Shown here: positions 1 to 64,000 of the stretch, one piece after another
Numbering within the stretch: position 1 is the first letter of the stretch
Layout of the letters: each line of letters begins with the position of its first letter
Assembly (NCBI GenBank): GCA_022376925.1
Contig: JAIOJX010000006.1
Span: 58,613,394 to 58,677,393 of the forward strand
From: Tragulus kanchil
Taxonomy: Eukaryota; Chordata; Mammalia; Artiodactyla; Tragulidae
Reading direction: 5' to 3'
DNA: 64,000 nucleotides
Notes under the pieces: generated by a model
What the model was told of the DNA's origin: nothing
What the model saw: only the letters and a program-made list of their open reading frames with translations
Databases searched by the model: none
Made by a program: the position numbers and the translations under genes

Positions 1-62
1 TGAGTTATTTTTATGAATCATTTGGTTTTTTTTAATAGCCATTTTAGCAAACTGAAACAAAT
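1..62. repeat. Degraded end of an upstream tiling piece
   Basis: The first 23 bases recur at 1,138, and the next 35 or so align to 1,162-1,236 only with large gaps. This matches the decayed outgoing ends seen at the other junctions and implies a 16th overlap (shift about 1,137) cut by the window start. Confidence 0.7.
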
Positions 63-99
63 TGGGGTAAGGACAGAAAGAGAATAATCAATTAAGAAG

Positions 100-305
100 C
101 TACAGTAGCAATCCACAGCAATGACCTACTCTATAGCACAGGGAATGCTGCACAATATTGTGTCTTAACCTGAATGAGAAAATAATTTATAAAATAATAG
201 ACACATGTACATGTATAGCTGAATCACTTTGCTGTACACCTGAAACCAACACACCATTGCTAATCAACTATGCTCCAATGTAAAATAAAAATTAAAAAAG
301 AAAAA
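100..305 (+). mobile_element. L1 3' end (3'UTR and A-rich tail)
   Basis: The stretch carries the typical artiodactyl L1 3'UTR text: a 'tatagcacaggga' block, 'ctttgctgtacacctgaaac', then 'ctccaatgtaaaataaa' and an A-rich tail. Only the terminal 200 bp is present, as in a normal 5'-truncated insertion. Confidence 0.8.
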
Positions 306-1226
306 ATAATAAAGAATACTAAAATAATAATACAGCATACCAAATATACAAAATAATAATCTTGTTATGTCAAGTAATAATAATAAAGAATACCAAAATA
401 GTAGAGACCAGAGCAGATAAGAACAAAAAAAGGAAGCTATTGTCAAACAACAGCTAGCTTACATATGATGGTGTCTCTGCCTTTTATCTACTTTTTATTT
501 GAATTAGTATGTAAGTCACAAAACAAAGTTAAATCATATATGCACAGCCAATTAAACGTTTGGAAATATGTGTAAACGTATTCTAAGGTTAACAGTGTTA
601 TTGTTCCAAGTTTAAGTTCCAAAGTCCATATCTATTACTTTACAAATGATATAAAGCAGCATAAAACAAACAAAAAAGCTAAATATAACTTGAGATAAGT
701 AAAATTATTTTGTTATTTTTATTCACCTACATGTATATATACATAAACAGTAAAACTTCCATACACTTAGATGTCCTTGAGAAATATTTTAAAAAGGCAT
801 CTGATGGTAAAAGCAAACAATCTGTACTTTGATATTTCATATTAGAGGTTTTTGATCAGGATTATGGTCATAGTGTACCCTGAAGAACAGAAAATATCAT
901 TGTTTATATAGAAAGACTTGAGTTCTACTTTTTCTAGTAATTGGAAGGAATAGTTCATTATTACTGTGAAAGATAAGAAAACTAAAGCTTTGTTAGGTCA
1001 TTTTAGTTTCTAGAAATGTAGTATATCAAGTGTAAACTCCTGTATTCTGGGTATAATAGATTTAAAATAAATGCTATTTCCATGGTACTCATACTTACAT
1101 TCTTATATAGATACTGAAATCCACTTCTCCATTTTAGTGAGTTATTTTTATGAATCATTTTTAAAGTATATTTTGTTGTTTTGCAAATTAGACTTATTTA
1201 GCAATGTATGCCATATACAGAACAAA
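306..1226. other. Unassigned AT-rich DNA
   Basis: The first 120 bases are a degenerate AATAATAAAG-rich simple repeat continuing the L1 tail. The rest shows no recognised repeat and no credible exon; short frames here are AT-rich shadows. Confidence 0.5.
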
Positions 1227-1242
1227 CTGAAACAAACTTTTT

Positions 1243-1567
1243 TTTTTTTTTAAAGATTTATTTATTTATTTATTTTGGGGGGGTGGGGTGGGGAGGGAGG
1301 GGAGCAGATGGGCTACTTCTATTGGTCTTTCATTTGTCTATTTTCATCCATCTTTGTTCTTTGGCCCATGTGGACCTCCCATCGCGGTGGCCTCTGTTGT
1401 CGCAGAGCACCAGCTCTGGGTGCATGCACTCCAGAGCTCCGGTTCGGTAATTGGACACATCAGTCCAGCAACTCTGTGGCACGTGGGATCTTCCCAGGCC
1501 AGGGATCAAACTGGCCCCCCTTGCACTGCAAGGCGGTGTCCTTACCCACTGGACCACCAGGGAAGCT
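1243..1567 (-). mobile_element. CHR-2-like tRNA-derived SINE
   Basis: The minus strand reads a tRNA-like head with a B box (ggttcgatccc type), a GC-rich body and an (AAATAAAT)n/A tail at the left end. A 16-bp target-site duplication beginning 'ctgaaacaaac' flanks it at 1,227-1,242 and 1,568-1,583. The C-rich 3' segment makes a G-run array on the plus strand at 1,277-1,304. The family name is from memory of cetruminant tRNA-Glu SINEs; the exact subfamily is uncertain. Confidence 0.85.
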
Positions 1568-1654
1568 CTGAAACAAACTTTTTGACATAAGATGATTCTA
1601 TTGACATAATTAATTTTCAATGAATGCTCTAAGTCACAGGGGTTAGAAAGCTTC

Positions 1655-1860: not shown

Positions 1861-2961
1861 GTTAGGAGTGAAAAGTTTCAGGTACATGAATATTTGTGGT
1901 AAGTGGTAAATTCTAGTTAGTAATGATGCTCAAAGGCACAATTCTCAGAGTTGGTCCTGTCTTATGCCCTTCAGCATTATCCATTCCACGTTCATTTCCA
2001 CTAAGCAGTTCATTTTCTTACCACTGATTTAATTAGCAATATGTTTGCTCCAGTACTCCTTTAACTCATTCCATTTGTCTAATGTACATGAGATTTCAGT
2101 ACCTTAACTCTTGCTCTTTTTGATGCAATTCTATTGGTGTTATTTATTAAAACATCACTCTATGTATTTTGAAATTAAACCTCTGTGAACAGAAATACAG
2201 TGCTGAATAGGATTATTTCTCTATGTTAGATCAGAAAAATCTTAACTATTTTATGATCTGGTCTGCTTTGTGTTAACCTGTATTGAATTCAACTGTATCA
2301 CAGCCTTTGCTAACTTGGGGTGCTGTTTGAATACACTCTTCAAAGTTATACTAATTTAATAGTCCTCTATCTCTGAGGTCAAAGATTAGACTCTGTATAA
2401 CCATAATGCTGAAAGCACCATTAGTCACATACTTCTTGGGGCTGTACTGCTTGGTTATAGTACCATCAGGTCAGATGGGTAGCACTAGCCTTATTCTGAC
2501 AACAGTATGACCTTAATAGGCCTTTTAGATCTAGTAAGGATCTACTTGTTCCATGTTTTTAACGAGAAAGAAATGATTTTCAGCTCTGGTGCTACTAAGA
2601 AGACTTTGTCTTAAGAAAATGTTTCCTTTCTTTGTCCTTTTTTCTTGTTCTTCTTTTTAAAAAAGCACCTGTTTTCCCCTGACTACAGTAGTATGTAGCC
2701 AACATATGCTTGATATCTAAGAAGACAATTCACTTTCAAGTTTGTCATTCTAGTTGAACAGCCATTTTGCCATTTAAAATCTCCTAACTCCTTAATATAC
2801 TATTTATAACTCCTGTGTAAACCAATGCAGATATTCAGGGGACTGGGCATGGGGTAGGAGTAGGGAGAAAGTCTTGCATGTAAATTTACTTTAGAAGCAT
2901 ATATTTTAGACTTAATAGGCATGTGAAGTCTTTGATTCTTTATACCATCTGTCTTCTAAAT
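1861..2961. other. Unassigned unique-looking DNA
   Basis: No repeat family, exon or RNA gene is recognised. Bases from 2,499 onward form the first copy of overlap pair A. Confidence 0.5.
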
Positions 2962-3165
2962 AATGGAGTGAAGTAATAGACTCTCAGTCATGCCTGACTC
3001 TTCATGACCCCATGGATTGTAGGCTGCCAGGCTCCTCTGTCCATTGTATTTCCCAGGCAAGGATACCAGAGTGGGCATTCATGCCTTCCTCCAGGGAATC
3101 TTCCCAATTCAGGGATCAAACCTGTGGCTCTTGCATTGCAGACAGACTCTTTACTGTCAGATAAT
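2962..3165 (-). mobile_element. Bov-tA SINE
   Basis: Reverse complement of the ruminant tRNA-Glu-derived SINE: tail block with 'cctgactcttcatgacccca', central 'tttcccaggcaaggatacc', and the tRNA head at the right end ('gggatcaaacctgtggctc'). It repeats at 4,065-4,268 in overlap copy A2. Confidence 0.85.
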
Positions 3166-4064
3166 GTAAATAGGTAACATAAAACTCATAAAATGAAATA
3201 ACTGAAATATTTCAAATAACACAGGTAAAAACATAAAAAGTTAAATTATCAAATTTAATATAAAACTACTGAAATATCATCTATTTAGGATATATCAATA
3301 ACAAAATTTTAGTTTTATTTCATGCTCTACTAATTATCTTTCTCTAAACTGATCTTTAAAGTTATGTTTGGGGGTATTTTAAGATATAAATTGACAGAAT
3401 CTTTGCATGAATCAAAGCTCAAAATTTTCCTAAATTAGAATTGATAGAAATACACATTTCAAATATTATTTTCTAAAATTCATATGAAAAGAGCTAAAGG
3501 ACTCACAATGAAGCAAGAGAGAAACAGAGTATCATGTGCACTCACATAAAATGAGTGACATAGAATCCTTTCTGAGAGGGTATAGTAGGAAAACCATCAG
3601 GTCACAACAGTATGACCTTAATAGGCCTTTTAGATCTAGTAAGGATCTACTTGTTCCATGTTTAACGAGAAAGAAATGATTTTCAGCTCTGGTGCTACTA
3701 AGAAGACTTTGTCTTAAGAAAATGTTTCCTTTCTTTGTCCTTTTTTCTTGTTCTTCTTTTTAAAAAAGCACCTGTTTTCCCCTGACTACAGTAGTATGTA
3801 GCCAACATATGCTTGATATCTAAGAAGACAATTCACTTTCAAGTTTGTCATTCTAGTTGAACAGCCATTTTGCCATTTAAAATCTCCTAACTCCTTAATA
3901 TACTATTTATAACTCCTGTGTAAACCAATGCAGATATTCAGGGGACTGGGCATGGGGTAGGAGTAGGGAGAAAGTCTTGCATGTAAATTTACTTTAGAAG
4001 CATATATTTTAGACTTAATAGGCATGTGAAGTCTTTGATTCTTTATACCATCTGTCTTCTAAAT

Positions 4065-4268
4065 AATGGAGTGAAGTAATAGACTCTCAGTCATGCCTGA
4101 CTCTTCATGACCCCATGGATTGTAGGCTGCCAGGCTCCTCTGTCCATTGTATTTCCCAGGCAAGGATACCAGAGTGGGCATTCATGCCTTCCTCCAGGGA
4201 ATCTTCCCAATTCAGGGATCAAACCTGTGGCTCTTGCATTGCAGACAGACTCTTTACTGTCAGATAAT
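4065..4268 (-). mobile_element. Bov-tA SINE (copy A2 of 2,962-3,165)
   Basis: Same element carried by the second copy of overlap pair A; not an independent insertion. Confidence 0.85.
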
Positions 4269-4692
4269 GTAAATAGGTAACATAAAACTCATAAAATGAA
4301 ATAACTGAAATATTTCAAATAACACAGGTAAAAACATAAAAAGTTAAATTATCAAATTTAATATAAAACTACTGAAATATCATCTATTTAGGATATATCA
4401 ATAACAAAATTTTAGTTTTATTTCATGCTCTACTAATTATCTTTCTCTAAACTGATCTTTAAAGTTATGTTTGGGGGTATTTTAAGATATAAATTGACAG
4501 AATCTTTGCATGAATCAAAGCTCAAAATTTTCCTAAATTAGAATTGATAGAAATACACATTTCAAATATTATTTTCTAAAATTCATATGAAAAGAGCTAA
4601 AGGACTCACAATGAAGCAAGAGAGAAACAGAGTATCATGTGCACTCACATAAAATGAGTGACATAGAATCCTTTCTGAGAGGGTATAGTAGG

Positions 4693-5324: not shown

Positions 5325-5530
5325 AAGTTGGCGCTAGTGATAAAAAATTTCCCTGACAATGCAGCAGACACAAGAGACCTGGGTTTGATCAATCCCTGGG
5401 TTACAAAGATCTTCTGGAGAAGGAAGTGGCAACCCACTCCAGTACTCCTGCCTGAGAAATCCCATGGACAGAGAGGCCTAGTGGGCTACAGTCCATAGCA
5501 TTGCAAAGAGTCATAAACAACTGAGCACTT
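5325..5530 (+). mobile_element. Bov-tA SINE
   Basis: tRNA-like head with 'aatgcagcagac' and 'tgggtttgatcaatccctgg', then 'gaagtggcaacccactccag', 'ggacagagaggcc' and 'gggctacagtccatagc'. The last 48 bases recur at 6,576-6,623, where overlap copy B2 begins. Confidence 0.85.
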
Positions 5531-6026
5531 TTCAGTTATTCACCACAGAGTATTAGGATCTCCTAATACTTTGAACTTGGTATTTACCAATATTCTCTTT
5601 TTATTTAGTATTTCACCCACTACTTTACTTGATAGCACCATGCATATACCACACACTGAAACAGGAGCCTTAAATTTAAGTTAACAGTTGATTTTTAAAT
5701 GGATCTCAAATATTTCTTTATGCCATTTGTTTGTATTCTGTAATCTGTTAGCATGTAGTATACAGATGCACTGTGATATAAAAAATCCTCAAAGACAATA
5801 AAAATATATATGACAGGTAAATATTTTCAAAACAAATTAATACTTCATAATTTGGAGATTTGGATTTCAATTTTAGAGATAAGCTTATTCTAATTAACCA
5901 ATTAGAGAAAAAATGACCAAGAAAACAATTGTCAGGGAAATTATTATTTTGGCTCTAGACAAAAATTTATCAAAGAGTATCTTGTTTGTGTCCCATTGAG
6001 TTTAAATATTAAGACATTTTAAAGAG

Positions 6027-6357
6027 GGTTTCCCTGGTGGTCCAGTGGGTAAGGACACTGCCTTGCAGTGCAAGGGGCTCCAGTTCGATCCCTGGCCTCG
6101 GAAGATCATGTGCTGTGGAGTGGCTGGACCAATGTGTCCAACTACCCAGCCAGAGCTCTGGAGCACATGCACCCAGAGCCAGTGCTCTGAGACGAGAGAG
6201 GCCGCTGTGATGGGAGGGCCATACAGGCCAAAGTACAAAGATGGAAATAATAAATGAAAGACCAATAGAAGTGGCCAAAAGAAAAAAAAAATGAGATAAG
6301 AATTACAAAGAAAAGAATGCATAAATAGAAAAAAAAAAAAGTTAAAAAAAAAAAAAA
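6027..6357 (+). mobile_element. CHR-2-like tRNA-derived SINE
   Basis: Head 'tttccctggtggtccagtgg', B box 'ccagttcgatccctggcc', GC-rich body, then a long A-rich tail. It is flanked by a 16-bp imperfect target duplication: 'aagacattttaaagag' at 6,011 and 'aagacattccaaagag' at about 6,358. Apparent reading frames over it are shadows. Confidence 0.85.
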
Positions 6358-7119
6358 AAGACATTCCAAAGAGTATGAGTAAGAGATATCTTGGCAAAGT
6401 TTGCCGGCTTATATGTAGTAATCTCCATTTACTTACATAATTGGAGCATCACTTTGAACATATTAGTGAACTTTAATTTAACACCATGAACCCATTAAAC
6501 AAAGCACAATGTTTAAAACTTACAGGTTTTTGAAAATGGAGATCTGCATACATTTGTACAGTCATGGAGCCAGTGGGGCTACAGTCCATAGCATTGCAAA
6601 GAGTCATAAACAACTGAGCACTTTTCAGTTATTCACCACAGAGTATTAGGATCTCCTAATACTTTGAACTTGGTATTTACCAATATTCTCTTTTTATTTA
6701 GTATTTCACCCACTACTTTACTTGATAGCACCATGCATATACCACACACTGAAACAGGAGCCTTAAATTTAAGTTAACAGTTGATTTTTAAATGGATCTC
6801 AAATATTTCTTTATGCCATTTGTTTGTATTCTGTAATCTGTTAGCATGTAGTATACAGATGCACTGTGATATAAAAAATCCTCAAAGACAATAAAAATAT
6901 ATATGACAGGTAAATATTTTCAAAACAAATTAATACTTCATAATTTGGAGATTTGGATTTCAATTTTAGAGATAAGCTTATTCTAATTAACCAATTAGAG
7001 AAAAAATGACCAAGAAAACAATTGTCAGGGAAATTATTATTTTGGCTCTAGACAAAAATTTATCAAAGAGTATCTTGTTTGTGTCCCATTGAGTTTAAAT
7101 ATTAAGACATTTTAAAGAG

Positions 7120-7450
7120 GGTTTCCCTGGTGGTCCAGTGGGTAAGGACACTGCCTTGCAGTGCAAGGGGCTCCAGTTCGATCCCTGGCCTCGGAAGATC
7201 ATGTGCTGTGGAGTGGCTGGACCAATGTGTCCAACTACCCAGCCAGAGCTCTGGAGCACATGCACCCAGAGCCAGTGCTCTGAGACGAGAGAGGCCGCTG
7301 TGATGGGAGGGCCATACAGGCCAAAGTACAAAGATGGAAATAATAAATGAAAGACCAATAGAAGTGGCCAAAAGAAAAAAAAAATGAGATAAGAATTACA
7401 AAGAAAAGAATGCATAAATAGAAAAAAAAAAAAGTTAAAAAAAAAAAAAA
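7120..7450 (+). mobile_element. CHR-2-like SINE (copy B2 of 6,027-6,357)
   Basis: The same insertion, target duplication included, carried by the second copy of overlap pair B. Confidence 0.85.
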
Positions 7451-7654
7451 AAGACATTCCAAAGAGTATGAGTAAGAGATATCTTGGCAAAGTTTGCCGG
7501 CTTATATGTAGTAATCTCCATTTACTTACATAATTGGAGCATCACTTTGAACATATTAGTGAACTTTAATTTAACACCATGAACCCATTAAACAAAGCAC
7601 AATGTTTAAAACTTACAGGTTTTTGAAAATGGAGATCTGCATACATTTTGCAAA

Positions 7655-8255: not shown

Positions 8256-9340
8256 AAAGCAAATGCATAAAGTGTAAGAATACAGGAAAGAGATAAAATG
8301 ATGGCAAAAGATACTCTTGACATATATGAACTAAGAGAAAACTTTGTGGGCTATGTTAATATTGAATTAAGAGCATCATTGAGGAGAGAGGGTTTCATTA
8401 AACAGAAAGAAAAAAAAAGGTCAATTTACCGGGAAGATGCTAAATAGTCTAAAGTATTATGTATTGAAATACATCATATATATTTCAATATATTATATAT
8501 TTTTATATTGAAATCTATCATATATATATAATATTTATATAAACTGAATAAGAATACAGTAAGAAATTGGTAAATCTTTGATCATGTGAGATTTCTATGT
8601 ACATGTTTCAATTAGGTTAAATAGAGAGAAATTTTTTAAAAATATAAAATATTTGAATAAAATGTACAGTAATTATGTAAAAACTTGCAGCTAAAAATAG
8701 AAAATATTCTCAAGGTTCCATGAAACATTATTAAGGTTGTCTATGCATTGGAACATTAAGATAGTATTAAGATTCAAAAAGACTATCACAGAGAACACAT
8801 TTTCTGCTGGAATTCATTAAGTACCTCACACAAATGCATTTTGTGTCTCTTAACAAATATGACATCAGGAGAAATGAAACACTTCAATGAGGCTTCTGTC
8901 TCATGAAAGAAGATGAAGCTTATTTGAAAGACTTTTCAAACTTCATGTCCAAATATTTCAAGGCATGTTTTATCAAACTTTTGAGGAAATTTTGGTTTTA
9001 CCATTATACAAACACATCCAGAAAACAGAAAAATGCATAATATTCTGCAACATATTCTAGAAGGCCAATATAACCTTGCTACAAAATTGCATGTTTAATT
9101 ACACATGTAAATGGCATGTGTAGTTAAGGGAGTTGTGTGGTTTATTTCTTCTTGTTGACTGTTATATAGATATGATGCATACCTGGAGCTTAAGTAGCCA
9201 CCATGGTCCTTAAAGTGAAGTCACATGTTGAGGATATTGTAGCAACAATAATAGAAGTCTGATTGACAGAAGATAATGGGGCTTCCACAACAGTTATATA
9301 ATAGCACCACAGTATATCTATTTCATATATATACATGTAT
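8256..9340. other. AT-rich DNA, weak old L1 signal
   Basis: 8,461-8,545 is an AT tract with an inverted repeat (attgaaata / tatttcaat) and TA runs. 9,040-9,095 ('ttctagaaggccaatataac') weakly resembles plus-strand L1 ORF2 DNA. Nothing else is recognised. Confidence 0.4.
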
Positions 9341-9376
9341 ATGTGTGTGTGGTTGTGTGTGTGTGTGTGTGTGTAT
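9341..9376. repeat. (TG)n microsatellite
   Basis: An interrupted TG array, repeated at 10,477-10,512 in copy C2. Both copies have the same interruption (GG in the middle), so they are the same locus. Confidence 0.9.
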
Positions 9377-10196
9377 ACTATTATTGTTACTATTTGCACC
9401 CTAAATTATTCCTATTTGATATACTATGTAAGATTGGAAGCAGTTCTAATACTTTTTCATGGCTCCTTCTTTAGAGATACCACACTTCACGCAAGTATCA
9501 TATGAATTATTCTTTCTAAATATATAGAAAGCATTTTAAGCAGAATATAAAATTTATGAATATTTTTGAAGAATTTTAAAGCACAAAAGTGACATATCTG
9601 TGTCCTGTATGGCAAATAAGTCACTCTTGTAAGTGAATGGAAAATGGGTTTAAGAAAAACAGTATTCGAGCCAAGGAAAAAAGTTGACTGATGCAGACAA
9701 ATGAAGAAGGCTGTGCAAAGGTTGTACTACTATCCTTTTCAAATTTGTCTTCCGTGGACTTACATAGTAGAAGGAATGAATTTGGCATATTTTTATGGAG
9801 GCACACATCTAGCAGTACTGATGATTGGTTTGGAGAAAAAAAGAGCAAGCCTAGCATGCAAGGCAGAGATCTACTTTCTAGGATGGAGAATGCATGAAGA
9901 GGAACATGTTTGAGGTTCCAAGTGATAGATTCACTCTTAAAATGTTGAGTTTTGAATATAAATCTGAAATTCAATAGTTACTATGCAAATGAGTCATACA
10001 AATGAGAAAAAGACCATAAGTTTTATTGACTTTATTTATTGAGTGCGATTAAATAACTGGTTCAGTTCTTGTTTAGGAAACTCAGTGAGAGAATTTCCTA
10101 CAGAGAACTCCTGCTATTATTGACCTTAAACAGTTCAATGACAAACAGATAGAATTAAAAAAAGAATCAAACATCAGGTTTGATATAGACAATAAA
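9377..10196. other. Unassigned DNA
   Basis: No known repeat seen. A 117-codon minus-strand frame (9,621-9,974) and overlapping plus-strand frames recur in copy C2, but show no domain, no splice context and no conservation signal. Confidence 0.45.
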
Positions 10197-10296
10197 GGGC
10201 TTCCCTAATGGCTCAGACAGTAAAGAATTTGCCTGCAATGCAGGAAGCCTGAATTTGACCCCTAGGAAGATCCTCTGCAGAAGGGAATGGCAAACT
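10197..10296 (+). mobile_element. Bov-tA SINE, truncated at a piece end
   Basis: Begins 'gggcttccctaatggctcag' and stops at 'ggcaaact', where the next tiling piece starts. The full element is at 11,335-11,545. A short deletion near 'cccctaggaag' versus 'cccctgctcaggaag' fits a low-quality end. Confidence 0.8.
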
Positions 10297-11334
10297 GTTA
10301 TATAGATATGATGCATACCTGGAGCTTAAGTAGCCACCATGGTCCTTAAAGTGAAGTCACATGTTGAGGATATTGTAGCAACAATAATAGAAGTCTGATT
10401 GACAGAAGATAATGGGGCTTCCACAACAGTTATATAATAGCACCACAGTATATCTATTTCATATATATACATGTATATGTGTGTGTGGTTGTGTGTGTGT
10501 GTGTGTGTGTATACTATTATTGTTACTATTTGCACCCTAAATTATTCCTATTTGATATACTATGTAAGATTGGAAGCAGTTCTAATACTTTTTCATGGCT
10601 CCTTCTTTAGAGATACCACACTTCACGCAAGTATCATATGAATTATTCTTTCTAAATATATAGAAAGCATTTTTAAGCAGAATATACAATTTATGAATAT
10701 TTTTGAAGAATTTTAAAGCACAAAAGTGACATATCTGTGTCCTGTATGGCAAATAAGTCACTCTTGTAAGTGAATGGAAAATGGGTTTAAGAAAAACAGT
10801 ATTCGAGCCAAGGAAAAAAGTTGACTGATGCAGACAAATGAAGAAGGCTGTGCAAAGGTTGTACTACTATCCTTTTCAAATTTGTCTTCCGTGGACTTAC
10901 ATAGTAGAAGGAATGAATTTGGCATATTTTTATGGAGGCACACATCTAGCAGTACTGATGATTGGTTTGGAGAAAAAAAGAGCAAGCCTAGCATGCAAGG
11001 CAGAGATCTACTTTCTAGGATGGAGAATGCATGAAGAGGAACATGTTTGAGGTTCCAAGTGATAGATTCACTCTTAAAATGTTGAGTTTTGAATATAAAT
11101 CTGAAATTCAATAGTTACTATGCAAATGAGTCATACAAATGAGAAAAAGACCATAAGTTTTATTGACTTTATTTATTGAGTGCGATTAAATAACTGGTTC
11201 AGTTCTTGTTTAGGGAAACTCAGTGAGAGAATTTCCTACAGAGAACTCCTGCTATTATTGACCTTAAACAGTTCAATGACAAACAGATAGAATTAAAAAA
11301 AGAATCAAACATCAGGTTTGATATAGACAATAAA

Positions 11335-11545
11335 GGGCTTCCCTAATGGCTCAGACAGTAAAGAATTTGCCTGCAATGCAGGAAGCCTGAATTTGACCCC
11401 TGCTCAGGAAGATCCTCTGCAGAAGGGAATGGCAAACTATTCCCATATTCTTGCCTGGAGAATTCCATGGACAGAGGAACCTGGTGGGCTACAGTCCATG
11501 AGGTCACAAAAAGTCAGACATGACTTAGAAATTGAGTACAATAGA
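11335..11545 (+). mobile_element. Bov-tA SINE
   Basis: Complete head ('gggcttccctaatggctcag') to tail ('aaagtcagacatgacttaga'), with 'gaatggcaaactattcccat' and 'ggacagaggaacctggtggg'. Confidence 0.88.
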
Positions 11546-12060
11546 GATAATACAAAAAAAAAATGTGAACACATGAAAGAGGGGTTTCTACAATAGAGAT
11601 TAGCTATGTAGAAAAAGATTTCTTGAAGCTATTATAGTTATGTTGTTAACTGAAGGATGAACACACAATACACAATAAATGTTTGAGCTTGAGGAAATAC
11701 CATTTGCAGAGGTTTCAAGACCAGGTTTTCGTAGGACTCAAAATCTTAAGACTGTTTTCACTGGGACTTGGTATTTTGGGGGAAGTGGACTGCATAATAG
11801 TATGTGAAAAGCAATCAAGAGATGGATTGCTAAACATCATTAAAGGAATTTGAACTTTATAAGAAAGGTAAAGAAAATCATAGAGTAAATTCTAATTAGG
11901 AATGGAAATTTACAGAGGTAAAGTGACTAAGAACAGACCCCAAAGGGGAGTACCTGCAATTTAAGAGAGGTTAAAAAGTCTATGAATGAAATGAAAAATA
12001 AGAAATCACAAATTTATGTTTCAGTTTGTTTCTTCATCAATTTAGCATTTAGTATTACTG
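11546..12060. other. Unassigned DNA
   Basis: No recognised repeat or gene. The segment is carried again in copy D2 (12,638-13,152), and its last part a third time from 14,065. Confidence 0.45.
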
Positions 12061-12426
12061 AGAGAAAAAAAAAAAAAGCCTAGCATGCAAGGCAGAGATC
12101 TACTTTCTAGGATGGAGAATGCATGAAGAGGAACATGTTTGAGGTTCCAAGTGATAGATTCACTCTTAAAATGTTGAGTTTTGAATATAAATCTGAAATT
12201 CAATAGTTACTATGCAAATGAGTCATACAAATGAGAAAAAGACCATAAGTTTTATTGACTTTATTTATTGAGTGCGATTAAATAACTGGTTCAGTTCTTG
12301 TTTAGGGAAACTCAGTGAGAGAATTTCCTACAGAGAACTCCTGCTATTATTGACCTTAAACAGTTCAATGACAAACAGATAGAATTAAAAAAAGAATCAA
12401 ACATCAGGTTTGATATAGACAATAAA

Positions 12427-12637
12427 GGGCTTCCCTAATGGCTCAGACAGTAAAGAATTTGCCTGCAATGCAGGAAGCCTGAATTTGACCCCTGCTCAGG
12501 AAGATCCTCTGCAGAAGGGAATGGCAAACTATTCCCATATTCTTGCCTGGAGAATTCCATGGACAGAGGAACCTGGTGGGCTACAGTCCATGAGGTCACA
12601 AAAAGTCAGACATGACTTAGAAATTGAGTACAATAGA
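12427..12637 (+). mobile_element. Bov-tA SINE (copy D2 of 11,335-11,545)
   Basis: Same insertion in the second copy of overlap pair D. A few substitutions lie just downstream ('tttctacaatag' versus 'tttatacactag'). Confidence 0.88.
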
Positions 12638-43497: not shown

Positions 43498-43504
43498 CAG
43501 AAGC

Positions 43505-47280: not shown

Positions 47281-47299
47281 CTGCAGCTCTGGATTCCTA

Positions 47300-51100: not shown

Positions 51101-51430
51101 TTCCCTGTTGGCCCAGTGGGTGAAGAGTCCTCCTTGTAGTGCAAGGGGTGCCAGTTTGATCCCTGGCCTGGGAGGATCCCATGTGCCTGCAGAGCAGCTG
51201 GACAGATATGTCCAATTGTGAGCTGGTGCTCTGGAGCGCATGCATCCAGAGCCAGTGCTCTGTGGCAGGAGAGGTCATTACAATCGGAAGCCCTCACGGT
51301 TCAAGGAGTAAAGATGGATGAAAATAAATAAATCAAAAGCCAATAAAAGCAGCCAAAATTTTTTAAAAAATGGAAAAAAGAAAAGGAAGGAATCTTGGAA
51401 ATCATCTACTCCTATTAAAAAAAAAAAAAA
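51101..51430 (+). mobile_element. CHR-2-like SINE inserted in L1 ORF2
   Basis: Head 'gtcttccctgttggcccagt', B box 'ccagtttgatccctggcc', GC-rich body and A-rich tail. A target duplication 'aaaaaactag' occurs at about 51,090-51,099 and 51,428-51,437. It is more decayed than the copies at 45.5 and 61.2 kb. Confidence 0.85.
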
Positions 51431-52090: not shown

Positions 52091-52109
52091 TATAATTATT
52101 AAATAAACA

Positions 52110-55007
52110 GACATAAAAAAGTGAAAAGAAAAGACTGAGGAGAGCTTGAGAGAAATCTGCACTCTGAGAGACGGAGTGAGGCAAGAAACAGAAACTCCTG
52201 GCCCAGGGGAAACCCCCTCACAAGGGAGGTTAAGAGGAGAGGTAGAATCTTGGAGAGCCAGAAGAAAAAACTGAAACTCTTAGCCCATAAACACCCCCAC
52301 AGACTGAGAATGAACCCCTTGAGCTCTGCCCCAAACCCCTGCTCCCACAGAGGCTTGAGATAAGTGCCTGAGAAAAGTAGACCAGGTGCAGAAAAATGGC
52401 TCTGGCAGAGAAAAGTGACTCTGGTGAAGAGCGCTGTCAATAAAGCACAACAACTCCACAAAGGCCCAGTAGTGGCGACTCAGAGTGTACTCAGAGTGTT
52501 AGGAACAGACTAGAGGATGTCTCGCAGCCCAGCACCCTGCTGGTGAGGGCCTTCTGACTAACCCCAGTTAAAGCAGGAAAGGCCTGAGTCTTCTTAAAAG
52601 AGGTCGCCTGTAGCCAGTTTGAAGTACCGCTGAGAGGGAGTGGGGAAACAGACTCTGGGAAGGGGGGCACTATTAGAACTCTGAGAGCACTAGAACCCTG
52701 GAAGGGAGAGCAGTGACCCCTTATGAGACTGAGTCCTGCACATTTGGCACTCAATCTTCACAGAGACACTGTATTGCCAGCTATCCTGGCCACTAGGCCT
52801 GATCAACTGGTCCTGTAAGCACTGCACTTACTAACTTCAAAATCTGGTTTTCCCGGGAACCTGAGATCTAAGCAGCATTCCCACCTCCACACCTGGCTGC
52901 CACTAGGACATCCAAAGATTCAAGGGCAGCTTCAGAAGCAAACTCTGGCAGAGGAGCCACTAACAGAAGAGAAGATAAATTCATAACTGAAAACCAGGGA
53001 CAGGTTTCCCCTCCCCCCAAGTTTTTCTGTCTCTTCACTTTAACTGTTAAATTGTTTCATATCTACCATTATTCTCCTTACAACTATTCTTTTGTTTGCT
53101 TTCTCTACTGTTTTTTTTCCTCTCTACTAAAATTCAATGTGTACGAATCTTTGTTATCTACCTCTACATAGATTTGCAATACTATTCCATCTTTATTCAT
53201 TACCTATCCATTCCCATCTTTCCCTTCCTCATCATACTTGATGGTTACTAGCTGCTTTTATTGCTTTATCCCCAGCTGGGACCTTGCTCTAGTTTTGTTT
53301 TCCAGACTGTGTTTTAGTTAGCTTGGATCTAAACTGTAGGATATCAACTTTGGTTTCATTGTTTGCCAGAACAATCTCCTGTACTTTATCTTTTTAGCTT
53401 GTTCAGTTTTTGTTATGGATGTATATGTATGTGTCTTTTTCCATTATGTTAGATGATATTGGCATGATTTTATAATTGCCACTTTTTGAAGATGTGCATT
53501 TTGTCCCTCATATGTTTATACTAGTTTTAATACCAATGAAAACCATAGGAAAGCAGCTGTGGAATCTCCATTGTTCTGGCACAGATCAAAAAACCTGGAA
53601 CTTTGGAGAGGGAGCATCAGTTCCAAGACCCTCCACTGTCAGCGAATGCCTAACACTAGGAAATATTAAACAGCAAGAACCCTAACAAAGACAAGCACCT
53701 GTGTACAAGACCTGACATCACCCAACACCCTCTAATAGAAGGTCCCTCCAAACAACAAAAAAGTCAAAAATGCAAATCCAATCATCAGCAGACAGGAACA
53801 CCAAATAAAGCAGGCATGCCCATCAGAGGGGAAAAAAAATAATTGAATAAATAAAAACTTGCCTTCTCACATACTTTACATGAAGCCTAAACAAACTTTT
53901 GGGCCTTCCTACAAGGACAGAAACCAAAAGGAAGGAAACACTCAACTGTGAAGCCTAAGTAAAGGAAACCTCAACACAATAAATTAATAATAATAATGAA
54001 AAGGCAGAGAAACACTGTACAAATGAAGGAGTAAACTGGAAACACAAATTCAAATGAGCAAAGAAGAAAATATAGACAAATAGAAAGAAAAAATAGACAA
54101 ATATCTGAAAGAGATTCAGAAGAAATATACAAATGATGATCCAAAACATTGAAAATAGAATAATAGAGAAAATGGAAAAATCAATTACCACACTGAAGAA
54201 GAACATGCAAGAAATCAAAAGTAAACAAATAGAGAGAAACACCTCAATTGTTGAACTTAAAAATACTATAGAATCAGTAGTAGAGTATCTGAGACAGAAG
54301 AATGGATAAGTGAGCTGGAAAATATAATGGTGGAAATAGCTGCTGAAATATAGAAGAAAGTACAAAGAATGAAAAGAACTGAGGGAAGTTTCAGAGACTT
54401 TGGGGATAATATCAAATGTACCAACATTTAAATTATAGGGGTCCCTGAAGAAGAGGAGAGAAAAAAAAAAAAAAAAGATCTGAGAAAACTGCTGAAGAGA
54501 TTACAGCTGAAAACTCGTCCAACATAGGAAAGGAAATAGTCGATCAAGTCCAAGAAGCAAGAATCCCACACAGAATGAATCCTGCCTCTGAGAAACACAC
54601 CAAGACACATACTAGTCAAATTAAAACAGATTGAACACAAAGAAAAAATATGAAAAGCAGCAAGGGAAAAACAGCAAGCGACATACAAGGAAAACCCCAT
54701 TCGTTTAACTGCTGATCTTTCCTCAGAAGCTCTGCAAGCCAGAAGGGAATGACAAGGCATATTTAAAGTGCTGAAAGAGAAAAATCTGCAGCCCAGCTTG
54801 GATCTCAATCAAAATTGATGGAGAAATCAAAAGCTTTACAGACAAGCAAAAGATAAAAGAATTTATTACCACGAAACCAGCCTTACAACAAGTGTTAAAG
54901 GGACTTATATAGTGAGCAAATACAATAGAAGAAAAAGATCTTAAAAACCTCAAACAGTTAAGAAGATGACAATAGGGACATTTGTAACAATAATTACTTT
55001 AATGTAG
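52110..55007 (+). mobile_element. Third L1 (L1-C): 5'UTR and ORF1, 3' part missing
   Basis: 5'UTR text parallels L1-B (52,290 'cacccccacagactgagaat'; 53,040 'taactgttaaattg'). ORF1 starts near 54,000 and has a coiled-coil segment at 54,140-54,300 with 'KSITTLKKNMQEIKSKQIER', then frameshifts. ORF2 has only its first bases ('gacatttgtaacaataatta') before non-L1 DNA at 55,008. Loss of the 3' end is unusual for L1 and implies a later deletion or rearrangement. Confidence 0.8.
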
Positions 55008-57119
55008 TGGCACAATTAATAGTAGATGTTTATTAGCACAGTATCAGTTGTGTGGTGATTAAGAATTAGAAACTGGGGAATGAGGAAAAACAGGTGCTTG
55101 TAATCAGTACTATAGACACTAAACACTCTAAGTCCAGTAGACTGGTTGTATAATTGGATAACTACCCTTGATTTTCCCATTCTCTCCCTTTATGAAAAAT
55201 TTCATAGCAGATATCAGAAATTTTCCTTTTGTATGAACTTAAGTCATTAGGCTGAATTTTAAGAATATCTGCTGTGTCATCCCTCTATATTATTATGAAT
55301 TTGAGTTTAAGGAGATAGTAAGAGTCCATACCTGGTAAAGGATGAAAGAAAGGTTAAAGAGATTTCAGCATGATTGAAATCACTCTAGGTTCTGAGGGAA
55401 GACAGAGAAACAATGTGAGAAAAAAATAGAGAAGAATATTGGAACTGAATCCAAAAGAAAGATAAGAAAGTTTTCTGGAGTGATCTATAAAAGCAAATTT
55501 GGGGCAAGTAAAAGAGATATTGAAAGGTATCTTATGCTTGTTCTTTTTCATTTATTATTTTCCTATTACTTGATCTTAACTTTGTTGAAAAAGGATTTAG
55601 GGCAGTTTAAAAACAGAAGTTGTCCATATGGTGAAATACAAAAAGCAGAAATAAAATAGCAAAATGCCTCTCCTCCACAGTCAAACGTACTCCTCTTTCG
55701 GTCCTCTCATCACTTACAAAGGCTTCAGCACAGAATAAGTAGCATGTGAATATTATGCCATCTACAACACTGTTTCTAAGGCTTCTTCTTGCTTATGTTA
55801 TGCAACATGTAGGACATATCTTTGTAAAAAAAAATTAAAAAGCCAAAAAGAAATGCCAAAGGAAACAAGCCAAAACCAGCCAAAATTATCATCCATGATT
55901 TGTCAAATGTATATTTCCTATAATAATTTACACAACGCTATGATATTTCTTAGCATAATGGAGAAAAGACATTTAGTAACCTGTAAAATAACCCCATTAT
56001 CCTGGAAAGCACGAATGAATACAATTATAGTAGAAATGATCTTAAAAACCTCAAACAGTTAAGAAGATGACAATAGGGACATTTGTAACAATAATTACTT
56101 TAATGTAGTGGCACAATTAATAGTAGATGTTTATTAGCACAGTATCAGTTGTGTGGTGATTAAGAATTAGAAACTGGGGAATGAGGAAAAACAGGTGCTT
56201 GTAATCAGTACTATAGACACTAAACACTCTAAGTCCAGTAGACTGGTTGTATAATTGGATAACTACCCTTGATTTTCCCATTCTCTCCCTTTATGAAAAA
56301 TTTCATAGCAGATATCAGAAATTTTCCTTTTGTATGAACTTAAGTCATTAGGCTGAATTTTAAGAATATCTGCTGTGTCATCCCTCTATATTATTATGAA
56401 TTTGAGTTTAAGGAGATAGTAAGAGTCCATACCTGGTAAAGGATGAAAGAAAGGTTAAAGAGATTTCAGCATGATTGAAATCACTCTAGGTTCTGAGGGA
56501 AGACAGAGAAACAATGTGAGAAAAAAATAGAGAAGAATATTGGAACTGAATCCAAAAGAAAGATAAGAAAGTTTTCTGGAGTGATCTATAAAAGCAAATT
56601 TGGGGCAAGTAAAAGAGATATTGAAAGGTATCTTATGCTTGTTCTTTTTCATTTATTATTTTCCTATTACTTGATCTTAACTTTGTTGAAAAAGGATTTA
56701 GGGCAGTTTAAAAACAGAAGTTGTCCATATGGTGAAATACAAAAAGCAGAAATAAAATAGCAAAATGCCTCTCCTCCACAGTCAAACGTACTCCTCTTTC
56801 GATCCTCTCATCACTTACAAAGGCTTCAGCACAGAATAAGTAGCATGTGAATATTATGCCATCCACAACACTGTTTCTAAGGCTTCTTCTTGCTTATGTT
56901 ATGCAACATGTAGGACATATCTTTGTAAAAAAAAAATTAAAAAGCCAAAAAGAAATGCCAAAGGAAACAAGCCAAAACCAGCCAAAATTATCATCCATGA
57001 TTTGTCAAATGTATATTTCCTATAATAATTTACACAACGCTATGATATTTCTTAGCATAATGGAGAAAAGACATTTAGTAACCTGTAAAATAACCCCATT
57101 ATCCTGGAAAGCACGAATG
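54937..57119. repeat. Overlap pair M (54,937-56,017 / 56,038-57,119)
   Basis: Direct duplication with shift 1,101-1,102 spanning the 3' edge of L1-C. Few differences: 'ttcggtcc' versus 'ttcgatcc', 'ccatctac' versus 'ccatccac', and an A-run. Confidence 0.97.
55008..56037. other. Unassigned AT-rich DNA
   Basis: No recognised repeat or exon. A 65-codon minus-strand frame (55,354-55,551) recurs in copy M2 without recognisable domain. Confidence 0.45.
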
Positions 57120-57734
57120 TAGGTAAAACATTAAGCATTAAACATTAAAGTGAATCAAGATTAAGCAAAATAAGGTCAGTGTCAGCTATTGGTTAGGTTA
57201 GACATGACATCAAAGTTGCTGACCATCATAACACTTTTCAAATATATTGAGAGCGTTCATTGGAATTTTAAAAATGTGAGTTTTATGTTTCCTCATCTTT
57301 CCCTTGGTAATAACTTCACCTTGCTATCAGTGGTGTTAAAGATGGTCTTAAATACTTCCTAAGTACTAATTACTGGGCAATATACACAGGTAAAAATATT
57401 TTATTTTGAAAAGATTTATGGAAGATTATAATAATATAACATAATTATATAATAATTTAATATAATAATATAATAATGACCATTATTTATATATAAATAT
57501 TAAATTGATGTCTCTTTTTCAATCAAGGAAATCTGAAAAGAAATTTCAAGATTTTATACTATTGAAAACATTGTTTTAGATTTTTCTAAATATTTACTAT
57601 ATTAAATCAAAACCATTGTTTTTCAGCCTTCTCCATATTTCTCAAGATAATAAAATTTCATTCAATTCAAGTACCATTCCTACAAGAGAATTTTTCATCT
57701 GACCACTCTGTGAACTGTTCATTAAAATATGGTA
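57120..57734. other. Unassigned AT-rich DNA with ATA microsatellite
   Basis: 57,425-57,478 is a degenerate (ATAATA)n tract, again at about 58,549-58,602. The rest is unrecognised. Confidence 0.5.
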
Positions 57735-57905
57735 CCTGATCCCACGGACAGAGGACAATGGATCCTCTGTCCATGGGATTCTCTAGGGAAGAATACTGAA
57801 TTGGATTGCAGCTTCCTTCTCCAGAGGATCTTCCCAACTCCGAGACTGAACGCACGTCTCCTGCACTGCAGACAAATTCTTTACCACTGAGCCTCCAGGG
57901 AAACT
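57735..57905 (-). mobile_element. Bov-tA SINE with terminal foldback
   Basis: Reverse Bov-tA ('gatcttcccaactccgagac', 'ctgcactgcagacaaattct', 'cactgagcctccaggg'). Its left end carries a 17-bp inverted repeat with one mismatch and a 7-base loop (57,739-57,755 / 57,763-57,779). Copy N2 is at 58,859-59,029. Confidence 0.83.
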
Positions 57906-58858
57906 TTAATAAAAAATGAATCGCATGATTAGTTTTTAGACCTCTAAAGTTATTTGATACCTATTGTCAATGACTTTGTTTGATTAATTCATCTTATTTC
58001 ATATTTATAGTTTACCTACCAATTGTTACATAAAAAATTGATATACAAAGTATAACATTGGAACTTATAACAAAAGAAATGCCAAAGGAAACAAGCCAAA
58101 ACCAGCCAAAATTATCATCCATGATTTGTCAAATGTATATTTCCTATAATAATTTACACAACGCTATGATATTTCTTAGCATAATGGAGAAAAGACATTT
58201 AGTAACCTGTAAAATAACCCCATTATCCTGGAAAGCACGAATGTAGGTAAAACATTAAGCATTAAACATTAAAGTGAATCAAGATTAAGCAAAATAAGGT
58301 CAGTGTCAGCTATTGGTTAGGTTAGACATGACATCAAAGTTGCTGACCATCATAACACTTTTCAAATATATTGAGAGCGTTCATTGGAATTTTAAAAATG
58401 TGAGTTTTATGTTTCCTCATCTTTCCCTTGGTAATAACTTCACCTTGCTATCAGTGGTGTTAAAGATGGTCTTAAATACTTCCTAAGTACTAATTACTGG
58501 GCAATATACACAGGTAAAAATATTTTATTTTGAAAAGATTTATGGAAGATTATAATAATATAACATAATTATATAATAATTTAATATAATAATATAATAA
58601 TGACCATTATTTATATATAAATATTAAATTGATGTCTCTTTTTCAATCAAGGAAATCTGAAAAGAAATTTCAAGATTTTATACTATTGAAAACATTGTTT
58701 TAGATTTTTCTAAATATTTACTATATTAAATCAAAACCATTGTTTTTCAGCCTTCTCCATATTTCTCAAGATAATAAAATTTCATTCAATTCAAGTACCA
58801 TTCCTACAAGAGAATTTTTCATCTGACCACTCTGTGAACTGTTCATTAAAATATGGTA

Positions 58859-59029
58859 CCTGATCCCACGGACAGAGGACAATGGATCCTCTGTCCATGG
58901 GATTCTCTAGGGAAGAATACTGAATTGGATTGCAGCTTCCTTCTCCAGAGGATCTTCCCAACTCCGAGACTGAACGCACGTCTCCTGCACTGCAGACAAA
59001 TTCTTTACCACTGAGCCTCCAGGGAAACT
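58859..59029 (-). mobile_element. Bov-tA SINE (copy N2 of 57,735-57,905)
   Basis: Same element in the second copy of overlap pair N, foldback included (58,863-58,903). Confidence 0.83.
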
Positions 59030-59153
59030 TTAATAAAAAATGAATCGCATGATTAGTTTTTAGACCTCTAAAGTTATTTGATACCTATTGTCAATGACTT
59101 TGTTTGATTAATTCATCTTATTTCATATTTATAGTTTACCTACCAATTGTTAC

Positions 59154-60158: not shown

Positions 60159-60298
60159 TGTTCTTTCTTTCTTTCTTTTCTTTCTTCCTATCTTTTTCTT
60201 TCTTCTTTCTTTCTTTTTTCTCTTTCTCTCTTTCTTTCTCTCTTTTTCCTTCTCCTGTACTCTCTTTCTCTCCTTTCTCACTCCTCTTTCTTTCTTTA
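60159..60298. repeat. Degenerate (CTTT)n polypyrimidine tract
   Basis: About 140 bases, nearly all C/T on the plus strand. Apparent frames across it (Phe/Ser-rich on plus, Lys/Glu-rich on minus) are compositional. Confidence 0.9.
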
Positions 60299-61125
60299 GG
60301 AGTGGACAAAAATACAGGCAGGTTCACATGGTTCATCAATAACACAAGCTTCATATTAGAGGAAATAAAGTATCCATTTTGTTGCTTGTAATTTGACATT
60401 TAAAAATACTATTCAAAAGTTATTAGAGACTGAAGTTCTTGGATCTTAAGATATCACTATATCATTATAGTGATTGCAATTTAAGGAATAATTGAGTGAA
60501 TCAATAAAATAATTTACTCCAAAGTAAGAATCCATGAGACATTGAAAGTTATGTTTCACTCAAATTCATGGAGAAATCCAGGGTCATATTAGGGCAGTTA
60601 CTTAGGTGAAACGTTTAGATGAGCAGTTCATAATGACAGCATAAGATTAGATAAAAGTACTGGAGTATACAATACTATCTTATATCTTTAAATTTGGTTC
60701 TGTGCATTATTTTTTTTTAAATTCTGATCTCTAACATTTATGTGTTCCTTTAATTCTGAATGATGTGAAAATAAAGATGCCTATTAGCCAACTAAGTTTA
60801 TGATAGAAGCTAATCATATTTTCCTAACTGAGGTTCATACTTTAGTTGATGATAATGATGCATAATTTTAAGCACTGTATCTAAGAGGAGTAAAGTTGGG
60901 CCTATGGTCTTAAACTCATGAAATGAGCATAATAATTTTGAAGGGGGAAAATTATTCTTATCTTCTGCAAGTACCTGAGTTAGACTCAGAATATTGAGAA
61001 AAATGTTGGTATCATGACAGAGTAAGCCAACTGAAAGTAAGAAATATGTTATTTTTTACTCATGCAAATGTCACTTGGAATACAGGTGTATACTTAGAAG
61101 GTGGGTTCAGTTATCATGTATGTGC
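60299..61125. other. Unassigned AT-rich DNA
   Basis: No repeat family or exon recognised. The part from 60,818 is the start of overlap pair O. Confidence 0.4.
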
Positions 61126-61672
61126 GTGTATGCTCAGTCACTCAGTCATATCTGAATCTTTGTGATCTCATGAATTGTAGCCTTCCAGGCTCCTTTGTTC
61201 ATGTGATTATCCAAGAAAGAATACTGGAGGACTTCCCTGGTGGTCCAGTGGGTAAGGACACCACCTTGCAGTGCAAGGGGCGCCAGTTCGATCCCTGGCC
61301 TGGGACGATCCCACGTGCTGTGGAGCGGCTGGACCCATGTGTCCAATTACCGAGTCAGAGCTCTGGAGCGCATGCGCCCAGAGCCGGTGCTCTGCGACAA
61401 CAGATGCCACCGCGATGGGAGACCCACACGAGCCAAAGAACAAAGATGGATGAAACTAGACAAATGAAAGACCAGTGGAAGTGGCCCACCCACCCCCCTC
61501 CTTCTGCACCCACGCCAAAATAAATAAATAAATGTTTTAAAAAAAAATACTGGAGTGTGAAGTTGTTTGTTTTTCCTGAGGATCTTCAAGACAGACATCA
61601 AACCAATGTCCCCTGTGGCATCTGAAATGGCAGGCAAATTCTTTACTACCTGAGCCACCTAGGAAGCACTGA
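61126..61672 (-). mobile_element. Bov-tA SINE split by a CHR-2-like SINE
   Basis: Left part 61,126-61,229 ('cagtcatatctgaatctttg', 'gtagccttccaggctccttt') and right part from 61,546 ('gaggatcttcaagacagaca', 'ctacctgagccacctaggaa') form one reverse Bov-tA once the inner SINE is removed. It repeats at 62,303-62,849. Confidence 0.85.
61230..61545 (+). mobile_element. CHR-2-like SINE, little decayed
   Basis: tRNA-like head and B box ('ccagttcgatccctggcctg'), CpG-rich body ('gagcgcatgcgcccagagcc'), C-rich block, then (AAAT)n/A tail. The 10-bp target duplication 'aatactggag' is at 61,220-61,229 and 61,546-61,555. High CpG retention suggests a fairly recent insertion. Confidence 0.9.
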
Positions 61673-62302
61673 CTTACTAATACAGAATGCAGTTAAAAGG
61701 ACTAGCTATTCATCCTGAAGTATTGCAGAGAAATTAGAGATTCTAGAATGTGACTTGAATCAATTGGTTAGAAGCAGACCAGTTTAATTCTTGGGTGATG
61801 ACAGGAAAACATTTTCTGCAGCAAGCTAATAAGTAGATTTAAGTGTTCACAATGCTTGTGAGAAGAAACAGTTCTTGTAGCATAATGAATTTAAGCCTTT
61901 GAAGGCAGAAATTTGCCCAGAATAATCTTTAAATAACCAAGTATTGTCTGCTTACACTAGAGAGATCTCAAAAAAGGTAAAACTTGATGTAAGATTTTCC
62001 TAACTGAGGTTCATACTTTAGTTGATGATAATGATGCATAATGTTAAGCACTGTATCTAAGAGGAGTAAAGTTGGGCCTATGGTCTTAAACTCATGAAAT
62101 GAGCATAATAATTTTGAAGGGGGAAAATTATTCTTATCTTCTGCAAGTACCTGAGTTAGACTCAGAATATTGAGAAAAATGTTGGTATCATGACAGAGTA
62201 AGCCAACTGAAAGTAAGAAATATGTTATTTTTTACTCATGCAAATGTCACTTGGAATACAGGTGTATACTTAGAAGGTGGGTTCAGTTATCATGTATGTG
62301 CG

Positions 62303-62849
62303 TGTATGCTCAGTCACTCAGTCATATCTGAATCTTTGTGATCTCATGAATTGTAGCCTTCCAGGCTCCTTTGTTCATGTGATTATCCAAGAAAGAATAC
62401 TGGAGGATTTCCCCTGATGGTCCAGTGGATAAGGACACCGCCTTGCAGTGCAAGGGGCGCCGGTTCGATCCCTGGCCTGGGAAGATCCCACGTGCCGCGG
62501 AGCGGCTGGACCGATGTGTCCAATTACCGAGTCAGAGCTCTGGAGCGCATGCGCCCAGAGCCGGTGCTCTGCGACAACAGATGCCACCGCGATGGGAGAC
62601 CCACACGAGCCAAAGAACAAAGATGGATGAAACTAGACAAATGAAAGACCAGTGGAAGTGGCCCACCCACCCCCCTCCTTCTGCACCCACGCCAAAATAA
62701 ATAAATAAATGTTTTAAAAAAAAATACTGGAGTGTGAAGTTGTTTGTTTTTCCTGAGGATCTTCAAGACAGACATCAAACCAATGTCCCCTGTGGCATCT
62801 GAAATGGCAGGCAAATTCTTTACTACCTGAGCCACCTAGGAAGCACTGA
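62303..62849 (-). mobile_element. Bov-tA split by a SINE (copy O2)
   Basis: Same nested arrangement as 61,126-61,672, in the second copy of overlap pair O. Confidence 0.85.
62407..62722 (+). mobile_element. CHR-2-like SINE (copy O2)
   Basis: Same insertion as 61,230-61,545, but its first 100 bases differ at about ten sites and keep more CpGs ('gtgccgcggagcggctgg' against 'gtgctgtggagcggctgg'). Confidence 0.9.
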
Positions 62850-63254
62850 CTTACTAATACAGAATGCAGTTAAAAGGACTAGCTATTCATCCTGAAGTAT
62901 TGCAGAGAAATTAGAGATTCTAGAATGTGACTTGAATCAATTGGTTAGAAGCAGACCAGTTTAATTCTTGGGTGATGACAGGAAAACATTTTCTGCAGCA
63001 AGCTAATAAGTAGATTTAAGTGTTCACAATGCTTGTGAGAAGAAACAGTTCTTGTAGCATAATGAATTTAAGCCTTTGAAGGCAGAAATTTGCCCAGAAT
63101 AATCTTTAAATAACCAAGTATTGTCTGCTTACACTAGAGAGATCTCATGGTAAAAATAATAGGAGGTGGCTCAAATTTGGGATATCTGACTTGTTATGTA
63201 AGAGTGGGAATCCTAGAAGTATAAATAGGTCTAATGAAAAGCATCAGTTTTTAT

Positions 63255-63807
63255 ATTTACTTAATTTTTAATTGGAAGATAATTGATTTACATTGCACTC
63301 CCAGGTGCTCAGTTGTAAAGAATCCACCTGTCAATGGAGGAGACACAGCAGATATGGGTTCAGTCCTTGTGTTGGGAAGATCCCCTGGTGGAGTAAATGG
63401 CAACCCATTCTAGCATCTTTGCTAAGAAAAATCACGTGGACAGAGGAGCTTGGCAGACTACAGTTCATGGAGTCACAAATAGTTTCACACGACTGAGTAA
63501 GAAGGCATGTTGGTTTCTACTATAAAATAACACAAATCAGTCATAACTACATGTATGTGAATATATATATGAATATATATAATCTTCCTATTTAGCCTCT
63601 ATCCCACCCCTCTAAATCATCACAGAGTGCCAGGCAGGGCTGTCTGTGTTATATATCAGTTTCTAACTAGCTAGCTGTTTCACACATGGTAGTGTATATA
63701 TGCTTTCTCAATTCATCACACCCACTCTCTGCCCTGATGTGTCCACAAGTCTGTTCTCTATGTCTGTGTTTCACCTTTTCCTTGTAAATAGATCCACAGC
63801 ACCATTC
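63255..63807 (-). mobile_element. Ruminant-lineage L1 3'UTR, interrupted by Bov-tA
   Basis: Reverse L1 3'UTR text: 'tttttaattggaagataatt', 'catcacagagtgccaggcag', 'catggtagtgtatatatgc', 'gtccacaagtctgttctcta'. Bov-tA splits it at 63,296-63,503. Confidence 0.82.
63296..63503 (+). mobile_element. Bov-tA SINE inserted in L1
   Basis: 'ggtgctcagttgtaaagaat', 'ggttcagtccttgtgttggg', 'ggcaacccattctagcatct', 'ggacagaggagcttggcaga', tail 'cacacgactgagtaa'. L1 3'UTR text continues on both sides. Confidence 0.87.
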
Positions 63808-64000
63808 TGGCTTCCACAGTGTCTCAGAGAGTAAAAAAAAAATCTGCCTGCAAATCAGAAAACCAGGTTTGATGCCTAGGTGGGAAAGATTCCCTGGAAA
63901 AGGGGAGAGCTACACACTCCAATATTCTTGCCTGGAGAATTCTATAGCCGGCGGAGCGTGGTGGGTTACAGTCCATGAGGACACAAGGAGTTGGACATGG
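63808..64000 (+). mobile_element. Bov-tA SINE, cut by the window end
   Basis: 'tggcttccacagtgtctcag', 'aaccaggtttgatgcctagg', 'ccaatattcttgcctggaga', 'gggttacagtccatgaggac'. The 3' end lies beyond the window. Confidence 0.86.

Follow-up and report, generated by a model that had tools for sequence, protein, structure and literature searches.

The window analysed here is the whole 64,000-base stretch of the Tragulus kanchil assembly GCA_022376925.1 (contig JAIOJX010000006.1, positions 58,613,394 to 58,677,393, forward strand), in which the N content is zero. It carries a retroviral provirus and a second retroviral remnant, together with interspersed and tandem repeats, and along its length run fifteen direct, nearly abutting duplications of about 1.1 kb, whose origin is the subject of this work. 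A plus-strand self-BLAST of the window served as the source of the pair list. It returned 15 direct head-to-tail pairs, ordered along the window and with identities of 99.05-100%, in agreement with an earlier reading made without database searches (the sequence-only reading), which had claimed fifteen direct duplications in order. The pairs are as follows:

Pair 1: 2499-3589 and 3604-4692, plus strand; spacer of 14 bases, 99.8% identity.
Pair 2: 5476-6555 and 6569-7648, plus strand; spacer of 13 bases, 99.8% identity.
Pair 3: 9158-10296 and 10294-11438, plus strand; spacer of -3 bases, 99.4% identity.
Pair 4: 10970-12060 and 12062-13152, plus strand; spacer of 1 base, 99.5% identity; 469 aligned bases in common with pair 3.
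Pair 5: 12913-14063 and 14065-15215, plus strand; spacer of 1 base, 99.9% identity; 240 bases in common with pair 4.
Pair 6: 17056-18131 and 18192-19267, plus strand; spacer of 60 bases.
Pair 7: 20802-21924 and 21920-23044, plus strand; spacer of -5 bases, 99.8% identity.
Pair 8: 23715-24829 and 24835-25949, plus strand; spacer of 5 bases, 99.2% identity.
Pair 9: 26794-27910 and 27926-29044, plus strand; spacer of 15 bases, 99.8% identity.
Pair 10: 29661-30831 and 30835-32006, plus strand; spacer of 3 bases; inside a repeat element.
Pair 11: 34264-35344 and 35361-36442, plus strand; spacer of 16 bases, 99.8% identity.
Pair 12: 40296-41395 and 41404-42501, plus strand; spacer of 8 bases; in a retroviral pol region, with the RNase H stretch doubled.
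Pair 13: 54925-56017 and 56027-57119, plus strand; spacer of 9 bases, 99.5% identity.
Pair 14: 56948-58029 and 58072-59153, plus strand; spacer of 42 bases; copies identical; 172 bases in common with pair 13.
Pair 15: 60818-61970 and 61994-63147, plus strand; spacer of 23 bases; 11 differences.

The first copies measured 1,076-1,171 bases (mean 1,111, standard deviation (SD) 31, n=15), matching the 1.06-1.17 kb reported previously, and the start-to-start distance within pairs ranged from 1,092 to 1,176 bases (SD 27). Near-abutment of the copies also held, whereas the spacing of -3 to about 80 bases given for it did not, the spacers running from -5 to +60 bases (n=15). The 14 interior pieces delimited by the pairs were 1,766-14,622 bases long, an 8-fold variation that bears out the former estimate of about 1.8-14.6 kb, and by arithmetic the window collapses from 64,000 to 47,135 bases, against a predicted 47 kb or so. 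A looser scan for direct pairs of at least 300 bases and at least 93% identity found 16, 15 of them with a spacing of 1.0-1.25 kb; the sixteenth (9833-10296 with 12062-12530) arises because pairs 3 and 4 interlock. Sequence common to neighbouring overlaps occurred at three places (469, 240, and 172 bases).

We considered that, if each pair consisted of the end of one piece followed by the start of the next, copy 2 should be poor at its left and copy 1 poor at its right. Over the 15 pairs there were 58 difference events, comprising 31 substitutions and 27 indel events, 19 of which lay in homopolymer runs of at least 3 bases, so that the sequence-only description of the differences as mostly homopolymer indels or single bases was a fair one. 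Only pair 14 had identical copies; the other 14 of the 15 differed, pairs 1, 2, 7, 9, and 10 by indels only. When the outer 200 bases of the overlaps were examined by direction, bases were missing from copy 2 in 8 indels and from copy 1 in 2 at the left end, and from copy 2 in none and from copy 1 in 9 at the right end. In other words, in 17 of the 19 outer indels the bases were lost from the copy that has its piece end at that side (Fisher p = 0.0007, indels within one pair not being fully independent). Widths of 50, 100, 150, 200, 300, and 500 bases were tried, giving p = 0.06, 0.007, 0.003, 0.0007, 0.002, and 0.014, respectively. The differences as a whole were also concentrated at the overlap ends, with 26 of the 58 lying no more than 100 bases from an end, where a uniform spread would put 10.5, and with 25 of 47, where it would put 8.5, when pair 15 was excluded. 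Missing bases that follow the ends in this way are predicted neither by biological duplication nor by a pair of alleles.

The spacers provided the second line of evidence. The 60-base spacer of pair 6 reads as a deletion-riddled version of the approximately 106 bases that follow copy 2. In pairs 14 and 15 the spacer likewise corresponds to about 62 and 50 bases, respectively, beyond copy 2, with some of them lost, and in pairs 1 and 9 most of the spacer matches a stretch a short way upstream of copy 1, the intervening bases being absent. Spacers of at least 5 bases (10 of 15) were given an anchored, gap-tolerant score against their own flanks and compared with 150 control sets of random flanks from which the neighbourhood had been excluded. 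Earlier local-alignment scoring favours gaps, and its controls could contain the true flanks, so significance rests on the anchored score. The summed score of the 10 spacers was 157.2, compared with a control mean of 118.2 (SD 4.7, maximum 129.5), and none of the 150 control sets reached it. Singly, 5 of the 10 (pairs 1, 2, 6, 14, and 15) scored above every one of the 150 controls. For the remaining spacers, the number of controls reaching the score was 9 for pair 9, 26 for pair 12, and 33 for pair 11, which is weak, and 78 for pair 8 and 115 for pair 13, which is chance level. As a set, the spacers behave like ragged piece ends.

Repeat relatives within the window served as natural controls. 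Both 29809-30088 and 30982-31260, one in each copy of pair 10, align alike to 52109-52411, and both 30253-30829 and 31425-32354 align alike to a stretch from 52760, after which the alignment continues in order to 33953 on one side and 54912 on the other (67-73% identity). The diverged relative at 52109-54912 is thus single where pair 10 is double. Both copies of pair 5 match one related stretch at 16400-17271; this match stops short of the junction and so adds little.

An interspersed repeat family with members of about 240-320 bases, 75-87% alike, was observed at 1243-1566, 6024-6276, 45543-45858, 51094-51354, and 61224-61533. The last of these lies in pair 15, where 10 of the 11 differences are no more than about 105 bases from this repeat copy, as if consensus or polishing had mixed in reads from other copies of the repeat. 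At the 10 differing columns kept once the outermost alignment columns were removed, the four remaining members of the family agree now with one pair-15 copy and now with the other.

Taken together, the 15 pairs are very probably an assembly artefact in which separately computed consensus blocks sharing about 1.1 kb were laid end to end and never merged. That they are an artefact, whatever program produced them, we regard as nearly certain, and the fifteen pairs are most likely not a real genomic feature. The sequence-only reading had proposed unmerged sequence-end overlaps, and both predictions of that proposal, a poorer copy where a piece ends and spacers made of leftover ends, were borne out for the whole set, 5 of the 10 scored spacers not doing so singly; neither is expected from a real tandem duplication or from two alleles. 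A nearly constant overlap beside pieces of variable length suggests blocks that share one graph vertex, and this combination points to an assembler of the wtdbg2 type, with its 1,024-base vertices; we consider it probable that the program belonged to the wtdbg family. wtdbg2 makes one consensus for each edge and joins these over the vertex that they have in common. In a fuzzy-Bruijn-graph assembler of this kind, 1,024-base read segments would become vertices, and consensus made from vertex to vertex would leave adjoining edge blocks with one whole vertex in common, which would be written twice if the joining step failed or was skipped. Since read starts and stops would scatter around the vertex, support would thin at the block ends and bases would be dropped there, so that spacers would be ragged and the copy from the ending block would lack bases. 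The blocks would then correspond to graph edges, and reads would be expected to show a single copy. The segment length of 1,024 bases is given in two descriptions of wtdbg2 (PMC10989838; PMC7506008), and a third states that its contigs are the overlapping sequence of reads, with consensus made by a separate program (PMC12037172).

Several observations sit uneasily with this explanation. Half of the 10 scored spacers fail singly to beat all controls, the five spacers shorter than 5 bases lie outside the anchored test, and the first 200 bases contain two indels that go against the predicted direction. The mean overlap is 1,111 rather than 1,024 bases, and this excess would require either that the raw reads run short of the true sequence or that read jitter lengthens the block ends. 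In a toy model of voting among reads, with values that were assumed (read ends jittering by 128 bases, ended reads counted as gaps), the overlap SD came to 32-61 and the ragged tails had a median of 16-22 bases; the solid ends, however, stopped 25-51 bases before the vertex end and did not pass it, so the model leaves the excess of the mean over 1,024 unexplained.

Among the alternatives, a tiling path of individual long reads or clones, joined by minimal overlaps and left untrimmed, came closest, and it is still very unlikely. The piece lengths of 1.8-14.6 kb are read-like, and a tiling path was what the sequence-only reading had pictured; its unmerged overlaps are supported, with the refinement that the pieces look like consensus blocks that share one graph vertex and not like clones or single reads. 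Overlaps between reads are expected to vary widely and would not be expected to hold an SD of 31, which disfavours clones and single reads, and an agreement of 99.0-100% is too high for raw noisy long reads unless they were polished. The dropped bases at block ends also fit a vote among reads better than the end of a single read, a judgement drawn from a scoring that favours gaps. Less credible again are flanks left by chunked polishing or by gap-filling, that is, by polisher windows overlapping by about 1 kb or by gaps overfilled from both sides. Polisher chunks do overlap by about 1 kb; however, they have one set length, and the pieces here vary 8-fold. Gap-filling extensions are expected to be variable and often to leave N, whereas the window has none, although overfilling of gaps from both flanks is attributed to PBJelly in PMC9635638.

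Two further explanations, which we consider highly improbable and to the same degree, take both copies as true sequence. Fifteen independent real tandem duplications of about 1.1 kb would accord with pairs that are present letter for letter in sequence without N. However, independent breakpoints predict varied lengths, and all 15 first copies fall within 1,076-1,171 bases (SD 31); moreover, opposite copies lose bases at opposite ends, the spacer set fits deletion-riddled sequence from beyond the overlap, and neighbouring overlaps interlock at three places. Heterotype false duplication, in which both parental haplotypes are kept, draws on the 22 of 31 substitutions outside the repeat stretch of pair 15, some of them mid-overlap, which may include true heterozygous sites; the mid-overlap ones could be alleles. 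Haplotype bubbles would nevertheless not all be 1.1 kb long, and no end-directional loss of bases is expected of them; alleles should ignore the piece ends near which 26 of the 58 differences cluster, and pair 14 is identical while five other pairs differ by indels only. De Bruijn unitigs sharing exactly k-1 bases and then concatenated would give a constant overlap at any unit length, but are the least credible of all because such fixed-k overlaps would show neither differences nor any variation in length, whereas 14 of 15 pairs differ, lengths run from 1,076 to 1,171, and both this spread and the spacers oppose them unless later polishing altered both copies.

With unmerged consensus blocks as the preferred explanation, the pairs can be compared with known assembly errors. 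Homotype false duplications, as described by the Vertebrate Genomes Project (PMC8081667; PMC9516828), lie near contig boundaries or under-collapsed sequence and differ in consensus quality, and a hummingbird example is there blamed on a bug in the FALCON algorithm. Those cases and the present pairs are alike in being artefacts with tandem copies at piece boundaries and uneven consensus quality. In the window, the boundary position is indicated by the spacer set and the directional base loss, the pair itself being the only boundary sign, and the 17 of 19 outer indels point to copies that differ in consensus quality and not in haplotype. A gap between the copies is absent. In the published cases, by contrast, scaffolding puts a gap between the copies, and the copies are often of about read length, whereas here they abut without N, are all about 1.1 kb long, and number 15 in 64 kb. 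The pairs are thus a homotype-like false duplication, dense and gapless, which works like the homotype class without being a typical member of it. The wtdbg2 graph has, like the window, a fixed unit of about 1 kb, which neighbouring edges would share, and a variable vertex spacing; in the window the unit is near-constant (SD 31) and the pieces vary, but the mean overlap is 1,111 and not the 1,024 bases of a vertex. Among the literature matches listed, nothing in the titles, abstract openings, or passages described wtdbg2 output with its vertices left unmerged, which is no proof of absence. PBJelly gap overfilling and failed merging in hybrid assembly (PMC9635638) resemble the present case in that duplication follows from extension or merging that is not closed, and differ from it in being tied to gaps or to the merging of two assemblies, with no near-constant length expected.

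About 16.9 of the 64 kb of the window, roughly a quarter, is likely spurious. Counts of exons, domains, or repeat copies based on sequence of this kind would be wrong, as with the doubled RNase H of pol. The direction-of-loss and spacer tests need nothing besides the assembled sequence and could be used to screen public assemblies for unmerged joins. It is possible, although we hold it somewhat doubtful, that the whole source assembly was written with unmerged vertices and is inflated by about a third throughout, in which case its tandem duplications of about 1.1 kb, gene-copy gains, and broken frames would be suspect and the end-directional signature would detect them without reads.

The pol region around pair 12 was examined by a Pfam search on 20 reading frames, 10 of which had no family at an E-value of 0.01. 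Retroviral protease, reverse transcriptase (RT), RNase H, and integrase domains scored above the cut-offs, and Gag_p30, two aspartyl protease families, and DUF5315 scored below them; the DUF5315 match in two frames represents two copies of one stretch. The search confirmed the earlier placement of one pair in a provirus pol, and the following matches were located:

38659-39669, plus strand: protease and RT.
39966-40355, plus strand: RT_RNaseH.
40297-41157, plus strand: RNase H.
41224-42219, plus strand: RNase H, second match, in copy 2 of pair 12.
42330-43307, plus strand: integrase core and murine leukaemia virus (MLV)-type integrase C-terminus.

With pair 12 in place, the domain order of pol reads protease, RT, RT_RNaseH, RNase H, RNase H, integrase. 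These domains belong to a Gammaretrovirus-like endogenous provirus at 37376-43307 (plus strand), in which Gag_p30 (below the cut-off) is followed by protease, RT, RNase H, and integrase in several reading frames. Since the two copies of a given stretch disagree at single bases, the integrity of this provirus, or of any other gene, cannot be judged from the window. Between the pol copies of pair 12, three substitutions with a three-base spacing occur at 40773-40779, and reads of a related provirus might have entered one consensus there. The second retroviral remnant, at 46603-47677 (plus strand), consists of an RT domain in frame 46603-47277 and, after it, an integrase core in frame 47246-47677, and no Pfam match to RNase H was found in these two frames.

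An Rfam scan of the window gave no family at gathering score, and the tandem-repeat listing for the window contained 10 rows. A 77-base unit repeated twice at 34828-34980 recurs at 35925-36077 through pair 11, an 86-base unit is repeated twice at 48677-48845, and a TTCT tract extends over 60161-60297.

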